Assembly (NCBI GenBank): GCA_029259915.1
Contig: JAJDED010000022.1
Span: forward strand, 1-64,000
Direction: 5' to 3'
Source: Planctomycetota bacterium
Lineage (GTDB): Bacteria; Planctomycetota; Planctomycetia; Pirellulales; Lacipirellulaceae
DNA length: 64,000 nucleotides
In this document: piece by piece, positions 7,488-10,153 of the stretch
Numbering within the stretch: position 1 is the stretch's first letter
Layout of the letters: the number at the start of each line of letters is the position of its first letter
Notes under the pieces: generated by a model
Databases searched by the model: none
Seen by the model: the letters and a program-made list of their open reading frames with translations, nothing else
What the model was told of the DNA's origin: nothing
Position numbers and translations under genes: made by a program

Positions 7488-8756
7488 ATGCTTATGACTA
7501 GGTCCACTCACCGTTGGATGGTCGGGTTGTTTTGCGTTATGCAACTCGGTGCGACTGAAAACGCCGCCGCGCAAACGTTAGCCCTGCGCACCGGGCAACA
7601 GCCGGCGCAGGAAATGGCTGGCGAAAAGAATCCCGATACGCAGCGGATTTTGCAGATCATTCGCAGCTTCGGACATCAAGCATCCGCGCCTGCGCAACTG
7701 ATTCAGCTCACGCGTGATGTCGAAGCGGGGGTTGCCGCCCCACTCTTCTTGCAAGTGGCTGAAGAAACCCTCGCATCGGGGCAAATCGATCTGGCTGCCA
7801 ATATATTACAGCAGTTGATAACCCAATATCCCCAGGAACCGGCCGCCACAACTGGCACCGTGTTGTTGATTCGACTTTTCAGCAGCGGCGAATTGGCCTA
7901 TGTCTGGCATCCGCCTCAAGATGCGGCGCGACAAATGGGATTGCCCGACGGGTGGCAAGAATCAGCCCAAGAAAAGGGGGGCAACTTCGCCAAGGGATCG
8001 CTCGTCTATGCCCTGCATCTCGCGAAGAAGCAGATGAGAATCCGCCCAAAACTGGCCGAGCATCCTCCGCTAGTGTTCCAGTGCGCAGTTGCGGCGCGAT
8101 TGAGCGCAGCTCCGCAAGAAGCCAAAAGTTGGCTGGCCCTGCTTAAACATAGGCGCGGCGATGCCAACTGGCGACGTCGCGCACTGGCCGAGTCTTGGTT
8201 GGCAGAATCGCACGGTGAGAATCCACCCCTGCCAATCGTCCCTTGTCGCATCGCAAAAACACCTCCGCACTTGGACGGCAAGCTCGACGAAACATTTTGG
8301 CAAACCGCTAACCCCTCACCCCTCGCCCCTCGCTCCTCAATCCTTTTCGCCTACGATAAAGAATATCTGTACCTGGCCGCGCGATGCGAAAAAATCGCCG
8401 ACGTCAACACCCCCGCCGATACCCGTCCTCGCACGCCAGATGCCGATCTTTCAAGCAGCGATCATGTGCGCTTTTTCTTAGACATCGATCGCGACTATGC
8501 GACGTACTACGATTTGTCGATCGATCATCGCGGTCGCACTGCCGATGCCTGCTGGAAAGATCCGCAATGGAATCCGCGCTGGTTCGTTGCCGCGGGAGGC
8601 GATCTGCGGAACTGGACCTGCGAAGCCGCGATTCCCTGGCAGCAGCTTACTGCGACTGCACCCACTGCTTCCGATTCCTGGGCCGTCGCGATCCAGCGCA
8701 TCGCTCCCGACGCAAAGCCCAAAACACCGAATTACAGTTTGCTGCTGTTTCAGTGA
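7488..8756 (+). CDS. Secreted protein with C-terminal CBM9-like domain
   Basis: 422 residues. A signal peptide (to about AAA/QT at residue 30) is followed by a helical TPR-like region (about 50-240) and a C-terminal domain (about 255-420) resembling carbohydrate-binding family 9: PPHLDGKLDETFWQTA, FAYDKEYLYLAARCE, VRFFLDIDRDYATYYDLSID and WTCEAAIPWQQL. Such modules occur on planctomycete exported proteins; the ligand is unknown and no catalytic domain is seen. Bases 8305-8345 inside the gene are a C-rich simple repeat encoding a short SPLAPRSS linker. An in-frame ATG at 7494 is an alternative start. Confidence 0.7.
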   Translation: MLMTRSTHRWMVGLFCVMQLGATENAAAQTLALRTGQQPAQEMAGEKNPDTQRILQIIRSFGHQASAPAQLIQLTRDVEAGVAAPLFLQVAEETLASGQIDLAANILQQLITQYPQEPAATTGTVLLIRLFSSGELAYVWHPPQDAARQMGLPDGWQESAQEKGGNFAKGSLVYALHLAKKQMRIRPKLAEHPPLVFQCAVAARLSAAPQEAKSWLALLKHRRGDANWRRRALAESWLAESHGENPPLPIVPCRIAKTPPHLDGKLDETFWQTANPSPLAPRSSILFAYDKEYLYLAARCEKIADVNTPADTRPRTPDADLSSSDHVRFFLDIDRDYATYYDLSIDHRGRTADACWKDPQWNPRWFVAAGGDLRNWTCEAAIPWQQLTATAPTASDSWAVAIQRIAPDAKPKTPNYSLLLFQ

Positions 8757-8867: not shown

Positions 8868-9998
8868 ATGGCATGGATGATTGGGATCGACGAGGCGGGG
8901 TATGGGCCGAACTTGGGGCCGTTGGTGGTGGCGGCGTCGGTGTGGCGGGTTGAAAAGAGGTCGGAGGTCGGAGGTCGGGGGTCAAGGGATGAGAAGGCGG
9001 AGGGCGGAAGGCGGAAGGTGGAGTGGGGGGGTGGCGTGTTAGCGCCGACTGCCAAGTCGGTTGCCCCGGCGGTCGACTTATACTCACGGCTTTCTGAGGT
9101 TGTGTCGCCGGTGCCGGATGGCGAACGCATTGCGATTGCCGATTCGAAAATGCTCTACAAACCGGGCGGCGGGTTGCAACGGCTGGAACACGGCGTGTTG
9201 ACTGCGTTCCGTTTACTGAGAAAACCGGTGGCACGTTGGTCCGATGTGTTTTCCGACTCGACACGGTCGCTGCCTTGGTACGAAAACTTCGATTGCGCCC
9301 TGCCCATAGATGCTGAGCCCGCAAAAATTGCCGACTTGGCCGAACGGTTTTCAGTAGCGTGTGCCGCAACCGATGTGCATCTGACTGACGTACGCGCACG
9401 AGTGGTCTTCCCACGCGAATTCAACGACCTAACCGAACACCACGGCACCAAGGGGGCTGCGCTATCACACATCTCGATTGGACTGCTAAAGAATGTTCTT
9501 CATTCCATCAATACCGACTTGGCAGTCGGCGCTAACACACCACCCCTACGATCCGCCTTCCGCCTTCCCCCTTCAGCCTTTGTATTCCCCGACCTCCGAC
9601 CTCCGACCTCCGACCTCTTTTCAATCACCTGCGACAAACATGGTGGACGCAACCGCTACGCGGCGCTCCTGCAAGACCATTTTCCGGATGATTGGATTGA
9701 GACGATCCATGAGAGCCGAGCAGCAAGTCGCTACTCGTGGGGTCCACCCGAGTCGCGCGTCGAAGTTTGTTTTCGCACCAAGGGAGAAGCGGAATTGCCC
9801 ACCGCCCTGGCGTCGATGACGGCCAAATATCATCGCGAGCTTGCGATGCGGGCGTTTAATGAGTTTTGGGCTAAGCAGGTTCCCGGCATACGACCGACGG
9901 CTGGCTATCCGCAAGACGCTCGACGCTTTAGAACGGAGATCGCCCGCAAGCAACGCGATCTGGGAATCGATGATCGCGACTTGTGGAGAAATCGCTAG
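8868..9998 (+). CDS. RNase HII-like protein with two repeat-derived insertions
   Basis: 376 residues. The start GIDEAGYGPNLGPLVVAAS matches the RNase HII active-site strand (D8, E9); further family features are ADSK (D92), TCDKHGG with a candidate fourth acidic residue D256, ASMTAKYHRE and TAGYP. RNase HII removes ribonucleotides and RNA primers from DNA. Residues about 29-65 and 216-251 are low-complexity and are encoded by two inverted copies of one repeat (8951-9061 and 9513-9625), which keep the frame open. Removing them leaves the conserved blocks directly adjacent. It is divergent from E. coli RnhB, so activity is an inference. Confidence 0.75.
   Translation: MAWMIGIDEAGYGPNLGPLVVAASVWRVEKRSEVGGRGSRDEKAEGGRRKVEWGGGVLAPTAKSVAPAVDLYSRLSEVVSPVPDGERIAIADSKMLYKPGGGLQRLEHGVLTAFRLLRKPVARWSDVFSDSTRSLPWYENFDCALPIDAEPAKIADLAERFSVACAATDVHLTDVRARVVFPREFNDLTEHHGTKGAALSHISIGLLKNVLHSINTDLAVGANTPPLRSAFRLPPSAFVFPDLRPPTSDLFSITCDKHGGRNRYAALLQDHFPDDWIETIHESRAASRYSWGPPESRVEVCFRTKGEAELPTALASMTAKYHRELAMRAFNEFWAKQVPGIRPTAGYPQDARRFRTEIARKQRDLGIDDRDLWRNR
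8951..9061. repeat. Intragenic repeat, left copy of inverted pair
   Basis: About 111 bases of GGTCGGA-type tandem words, then GGCGGAAGG-type words, a G-rich stretch and the end TTAGCGCCGACTGCCAAGTC. The end contains a small hairpin (CCGACT/AGTCGG). It is inverted relative to 9513-9625 and lies in frame in the RNase HII-like gene. Confidence 0.9.
9513..9625. repeat. Intragenic repeat, right copy of inverted pair
   Basis: The reverse complement reproduces the order of the left copy at 8951-9061: GAAAAGAGGTCGGAGGTCGG, GGCGGAAGGCGG, then TTAGCGCCGACTGCCAAGTC. The middle has diverged in length and sequence. The two copies are 451 bases apart and both are translated. Confidence 0.9.
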
Positions 9999-10002
9999 TC
10001 CA

Positions 10003-10153
10003 GATTTTCACTACGGAGACACAGAGGACACGGAGAGGGAAAGGTTGATTTATGAATGATGATTGATGAACTGCAGTGCGCTGAGCCATTTCGTTTTTCG
10101 TCCAGCACTCATAAATCCATACTCAGTGTTCTCCGTGACTCCGTGGTAAATCT
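10003..10153. repeat. Long imperfect palindrome upstream of the SixA-like gene
   Basis: The left arm (about 10003-10038, CTACGGAGACACAGAGGACA) and right arm (about 10120-10153, TGTTCTCCGTGACTCCGTGG) are inverse near-matches. Inner arms GATTTATGA and TCATAAATC add a second stem. The outer arms resemble those of the element at 1704-1843, so the two belong to one dispersed family. It fills the gap between the RNase HII-like and SixA-like genes. Confidence 0.8.

Follow-up and report, generated by a model that had tools for sequence, protein, structure and literature searches.

Heptameric repeats dispersed in bacterial genomes are known as the G-rich heptamers of Xanthomonas and Nostoc (Rehm et al, 2015; PMC4692102). 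For Xanthomonas, the available text of that study gives 70 and 75 convergent pairs in two genomes, located near ORF ends, a G-quadruplex-capable unit, GGGAATC, and a share of 7–11% lying at least partly in ORFs. Rickettsia palindromic elements, as presented in the accessible part of a review (PMC10969869), are ~150 bp long and encode a conserved peptide in frame in unrelated genes. In the mitochondria of Nematomorpha, the perfect arms of coding palindromes encode conserved regions (PMC6649704, available portion), and template switching at quasi-palindromes makes imperfect inverted-repeat arms more alike, also within genes (PMC3820800 and PMC8604942, from their available sections). Satellites are defined, in the part of PMC6749651 at hand, as repeats with units of 10–200 nt. 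Among the open-licence papers searched, no title or abstract opening describes such heptamer or in-frame repeats in Planctomycetes, and none of the titles retrieved with the repeat sequence itself was relevant. REP/REPIN-type sequences, for their part, are short palindromes that go with a RAYT transposase.

The locus described here lies in the window, i.e. the whole 64-kb stretch of DNA that was analyzed, in which two inverted pairs of at least 30 nt were found at the setting used, one of them of 31 nt only. The other one is the inverted pair of ~111 bases that the original prediction had placed in one open frame, and it is real: its arms, 8950–9061 and 9513–9624, measure 112 nt each, are 86% complementary in a gapless alignment, are spaced by 451 nt and both lie in frame inside a single ORF of 376 aa (8868–9998, + strand), where they correspond by simple arithmetic to about aa 28–65 (left) and aa 216–253 (right). 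The repeat is also compound, as announced, each arm being composed, from the outside to the inside, of A (GAGGTCG)n, B (GAAGGCG)n and a palindromic block C. The agreement between the two arms differs from segment to segment, with 35/38 for A, 28/38 for B, 9/12 for the link and 24/24 for C. The features of the locus are:

8868–9998, + strand: RNase HII-like gene, an ORF of 376 aa, open throughout, matching Pfam RNase_HII
8950–9061, + strand: left arm (loop 1, ~aa 28–65), with A array, B array and C block
8954–8989, + strand: A array of GAGGTCG-type heptamers, purine-rich strand on +, from the period-7 scan; dispersed in the genome
8991–9025, + strand: B array of GAAGGCG-type heptamers, from the period-7 scan
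9039–9060, + strand: C block, TTAGCGCCGACTGCCAAGTCGG, partly palindromic, from the genome search (≤3 mismatches)
9062–9512, + strand: conserved coding core between the arms, 451 nt, alignable to homologues
9513–9624, − strand: right arm (loop 2, ~aa 216–253), inverted as C′-B′-A′ and ending just before TCDKHGG
9514–9535, − strand: C′ block, from the genome search
9551–9581, − strand: B′ array, from the period-7 scan
9584–9622, − strand: A′ array, from the period-7 scan; TRF at 9589–9617 gives period 7, 4.1 copies and 100% matches
8298–8346, − strand: heptamer array lying in frame (~aa 271–286) in the upstream ORF 7488–8756, which has no Pfam family

Homologue alignments place conserved RNase HII blocks on both sides of each arm, as had been predicted. 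The 451-nt middle aligns with the core of the homologues and is therefore not a mobile or captured cargo, a candidate that we ruled out. The window also contains another repeat type, CACGGAG/CACAGAG-like, in head-to-head inverted pairs at 1703–1733 / 1814–1844 and, between ORFs, at ~10010–10035 / 10125–10150.

The host gene matches Pfam RNase_HII with 37.3 bits (cut-off 25.8), the best stretch covering aa 5–36 only, and scores 24.9 bits with the NCBIfam equivalog TIGR00729, for which the cut-off is 123.3; a score that far under the cut-off places the predicted enzyme in a divergent RNase HII-like family. Residues D8, E9, D256 and E324, which we take to be catalytic, are invariant in an alignment of 55 rows with collinear motifs. 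Among solved chains, the profile matches RNase H2, RNase HII and 4py5, an entry given as 'Ribonuclease' that is presumably an RNase HIII; the segments are collinear with 4py5, in which loop 2 maps to the turn preceding the DK strand. The gene is the sole PF01351 match in its own genome, from an assembly that is 93.2% complete, and a match is present in 56 of the 59 genomes searched, its own included.

The arms occupy two loops of variable length, the first following the second conserved block, the other situated just ahead of the DKHGG strand. We compared these loops in 95 unique homologues: 11 from the genus, 14 from other members of the family and 70 not on the family list, which were left unclassified as to family and include Botrimarina (L106), in our understanding a family member. 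Seven further matching family members were left out, as was an eighth (G002), whose match spans just 39 aa. Both loops are longer than 30 nt in all 11 genus members, in 12 of the 14 other family members read and in 4 of the 70 others, 53 of which have two loops of at most 30 nt (≤10 residues each); some of the genus loops are only 33–39 nt long. The original prediction had proposed that homologues might lack residues ~29–65 and 216–251, and indeed these residues are absent or other repeat-like DNA stands in their place; homologues with the same residues but unrelated DNA, named as the opposite outcome, were not found among those compared.

Pooled over the genus, the identity at lag 7 is 0.46 in loop 1 and 0.48 in loop 2, compared to 0.28–0.32 at other lags and 0.25 in the core. 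Taken singly, a loop passes the period-7 shuffle test (p < 0.05) in 6/11 (loop 1) and 5/11 (loop 2) genus members, in 4 and 5 of the 14 other family members, and in 5 and 2 of the 70 others. The GC skew in the genus is +0.37 for loop 1 and −0.54 for loop 2, loop 1 being more G-skewed than loop 2 in 10/11 members; this rule is bound to the genus, as it applies to 6/14 other family members and 33/70 others. The repeat units vary by species, with GAGGTCG in the window's genome, GAGTTGC in G006 and still others in further genomes; in some congeners the unit of loop 1 is unlike that of loop 2, and the loop peptides look unrelated from one species to another. In the focal gene, the complementarity between the two loops reaches a score of 71, with a maximum of 20 in 48 cross-species comparisons. 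When each of 25 homologues is ranked against 48 such comparisons, its own loop pair is among the top three in six (L021, L022, L024, L027, L028 and L035); the better match of own loops over shuffled partners persists among the 24 homologues left when the focal gene is excluded (p = 0.00065). In L024, L027 and L028, which are other members of the family, we also observed GCGAGCCG-type palindromes, inverted, in the two RNase HII-like loops.

The segments of the arms differ in their distribution over the genome. The original prediction described the repeat as dispersed and held that arms dissimilar to repeats elsewhere would speak against it: dispersal stands for the A unit, with 100 matches in its own genome at ≤1 mismatch (reversed control, 1), and falls for block C, which in the whole genome assembly, at ≤3 mismatches, occurs only at 9039–9060 and 9514–9535. 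For B, the pattern search was dropped, with 63 matches versus 53 in the reversed control, a count that is uninformative because this control is nearly a rotation of the B unit; BLAST gave three B-like matches elsewhere.

Period-7 arrays were further counted in samples of this genome, genes being called by a simple script based on ORFs and codons instead of an annotation. The first sample was picked around array hits, which may favor pairs and should not favor either direction. The second, of 400 kb, consists of 20 further pieces from seven contigs known from hits, without overlap with the first, so that A-rich pieces are omitted. It contains 23 period-7 arrays, versus none in its 3-mer shuffle; for comparison, lag 6 gives 3 arrays and lag 8 a single one. 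Of the 23, 18 are intergenic, 3 are at ORF edges and 2 lie deep in one gene. The orientation of the Rehm type, with the G-rich strand directed outward from the closest ORF end, is seen in 10 of the 18 intergenic arrays and contradicted by 5, with 3 unclassed. Both samples and the window, 861 kb altogether, comprise 87 arrays, among which 24 pairs of neighbors are at most 600 nt apart: 17 are convergent, none is divergent, 5 have the same direction and 2 are unclassed. The gap of the focal pair is the longest, with 527 nt between its arrays. In the 16 non-focal convergent pairs, own partners match better than shuffled ones (p ~0.0007), and 5/16 score under their cross mean, i.e. have unlike units. 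The main unit, GAGGTCR, contains no GGG in its standard form. Frame neutrality of the arrays was considered and rejected: in 59 of the 87, at least one strand is free of stops in each of its three frames, versus 72.6% of 1740 length-matched random segments.

Two other genomes were sampled. In 400 kb of G040, from another family of the same order, 6 arrays reach threshold 17; none of them lies deep in an ORF or forms part of a convergent pair. G006 displays 14 arrays in 800 kb; in its sample, the RNase HII locus was included by the choice of the last piece, and the CarB and tRNA synthetase pieces fell in by spacing. Since these two densities are about equal, array density as a family-wide companion of the loops was rejected. 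In L058, L059 and L068, heptamer pairs occur within or beside CCAAGG / CGCCAAG-type repeats, which in two of the three are head to head, forming layered inverted repeats.

In-frame heptamer inserts are also found in CarB (Pfam), a class I tRNA synthetase, a PutA-like linker and the upstream ORF 7488–8756. For CarB, 30 loci were obtained from 38 matching genomes, in which a first insertion site (site A) was readable in 24 and a second (site B) in 28. Site A exceeds its usual 20–21 aa in 11/24 loci; 8 of these 11 have period 7 (p < 0.05) and 9 a first half that is more G-skewed. Site B exceeds 10 aa in 10/28, with period 7 in 9/10 and the more G-skewed first half in all 10. The longer forms all fall within the family, the remainder having 20–21 aa at site A and exactly 10 aa at site B. 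The tRNA synthetase belongs to the I/L/M/V group of Pfam class I and is presumably IleRS. Its site was read in 21/30 loci (20 of 29 genomes), and the lag-7 identity is at least 0.46 in 8/20 genomes, one of which (G042) is outside the family. At L066:2864–6767, three consecutive ORFs without Pfam family, prepilin-like by our reading, carry heptamer arrays facing each other in their first 55 codons.

Set beside the heptamers of Rehm et al (2015), as far as the available text describes them, the arrays studied here share the period of 7, the dispersal, the mostly intergenic position and the convergent pairs. Unlike those of Xanthomonas in the same text, they comprise many unit families, often without the GGG tract able to form G-quadruplexes, and they lie in frame in RNase HII-like, CarB and tRNA synthetase loops, recurring across species. 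The presence of in-frame repeat DNA in unrelated protein genes is shared with the Rickettsia palindromic elements as outlined in the accessible review text; here, however, unit, length and peptide are species-specific, and heptamer arrays take the place of a ~150-bp element with a conserved peptide. As far as these partial descriptions go, the architecture is that of the Xanthomonas heptamers and the in-frame habit that of the Rickettsia elements, the class being a full member of neither. Long inverted repeats in coding genes are common to Nematomorpha, going by the available portion of that study, but the arms are imperfect and lie in variable loops in our case. The template-switching studies, in their available sections, infer or select the events themselves, whereas we infer the event from arms of 112 nt that are 451 nt apart. 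Like REP/REPIN sequences, block C and a relative of it in G011 are short and partly palindromic; the G011 relative is also dispersed, with several close inverted pairs, a dispersal that C does not show in the window's genome. This CGTTAGCGCCGTCGGCTACG-like (C-like) sequence has 69 matches in G011 at ≤3 mismatches (control, 2), and the C-like block of that genome is also found, inverted, in both RNase HII-like loops. We also observed 76 matches of the CGTTAGCGCCGTCGGCTACG-like sequence in G009 (control, 0) and one in the window's genome (control, 1).

Overall, the arms look like junk repeat DNA tolerated by core enzymes and not like an RNA device. We consider it likely that a convergent heptamer class has come to occupy permissive loops, its two halves standing around the 451-nt core, and that the arms were probably homogenized by template switching. 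The source would be the dispersed class of this group, short purine-rich heptamer arrays that are mainly intergenic and often form convergent pairs around different DNA. Such arrays may also enter genes, and would survive when the frame is kept and the loop tolerates the added peptide, which would then be neutral for the protein. In the RNase HII-like gene, the left half of a convergent arrangement would be in loop 1 and the right half in loop 2, with the conserved core between them, and the inverted, partly complementary loops would offer the arms that template switching, or quasi-palindrome correction, probably made alike. As proposed, such switching between the arms would account for the gapless 112 nt and the confinement of C to this gene: the lack of any other copy of C in the genome and of any indel between the arms points to a copying process from loop to loop. 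Of the two readings first put forward, that of a repeat which the protein tolerates as peptide is supported by the missing residues or other repeats in the homologues, by the dispersal of A and by the in-frame occurrence of the class in other core genes.

Some observations fit this account less readily. Clearly complementary loops are found in only 6 of the 25 homologues, no more than about half of the loops in the genus show period 7 when tested singly, and the opposite skew of the two loops is confined to the genus. Plain copying of one arm does not explain the five convergent pairs with unlike units. As the C-like block of G011 is dispersed and inverted in both loops, C could go back to an old double insertion whose two copies were subsequently kept alike, and not to a single copying event within the gene. 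No empty site was found in a close relative, the genus homologues being ~56–65% identical in protein, and for this reason the order of events and the mechanism are not directly observed.

A less probable account, to be taken seriously nonetheless, is that the compound repeat was inserted twice, independently, the opposite direction being due to chance or to the coding strand; it is compatible with later homogenization. In related species, different repeats occupy these two loops time and again, and the unlike units in the two loops of some congeners are what separate insertions would leave. However, with C nowhere else in the genome, a free A-B-C donor is not seen, and two separate events fit poorly with 112 nt aligned without an indel.

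We think it rather unlikely, but worth stating, that convergence does not result from copying and is the mark of a directed, strand-specific process that would add heptamers at breaks or gaps with the purine-rich strand inward, whatever the unit, in genes and spacers alike, the loops recording what selection spares. If so, the repeats in the RNase HII-like gene of the organism itself could even influence the process in turn, as yeast cells that have lost RNase H2 undergo more quasi-palindrome mutations (PMC3820800, available portion).

Retention of the loop peptides because they serve the protein, e.g. in binding or oligomerization, with repeat DNA as the raw material only, appears improbable. 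Within the family, a longer loop 1 tends to go with a longer loop 2 (Spearman 0.76, 25 homologues), and the constant sense of the skew in 10/11 genus members would also fit a selected peptide, but the peptides bear no visible relation to each other between species, and 53 of the 70 other homologues make do with at most 10 residues per loop.

The second reading of the original prediction, an RNA-level or splice-like device in which pairing of the arms in the mRNA would conceal, loop out or excise the central part of the message, was not supported and is in our view very unlikely. The predicted fold of the whole ORF, computed without a shuffle control at that length, does pair the arms along most of their length, but this is expected of any 112-nt inverted repeat, and the middle to be hidden or removed is the conserved enzyme core. 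Moreover, 19 of the 25 homologues show no clear complementarity between their loops, own pairs reaching the top three in only six, the units of loop 1 and loop 2 are unlike in some congeners, and CarB and the tRNA synthetase hold such repeats within one loop, with no core enclosed. An assembly artefact of the draft genome is extremely improbable: the assembly has 64 contigs, a completeness of 93.2% and a contamination of 3.49%, and inverted repeats are prone to misassembly, but the frame is intact over 376 codons, the core is alignable, the similarity of the arms is just 86%, and repeats occur at the same sites in congeners, among them G006, whose genome is in a single contig.

If convergent heptamer arrays tolerated in permissive loops are indeed what the arms represent, a bacterial repeat class turns over within core enzymes (the RNase HII-like protein, CarB and a tRNA synthetase), in loops that coincide across many species, and relatives with short loops are available as a comparison for the species with loop inserts. 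This would make testable both the origin of arrays with a fixed convergent direction and the reach of template switching in remodeling coding DNA between distant loops. It also calls for caution, as an odd low-complexity peptide in a planctomycete protein may be repeat DNA and not function.
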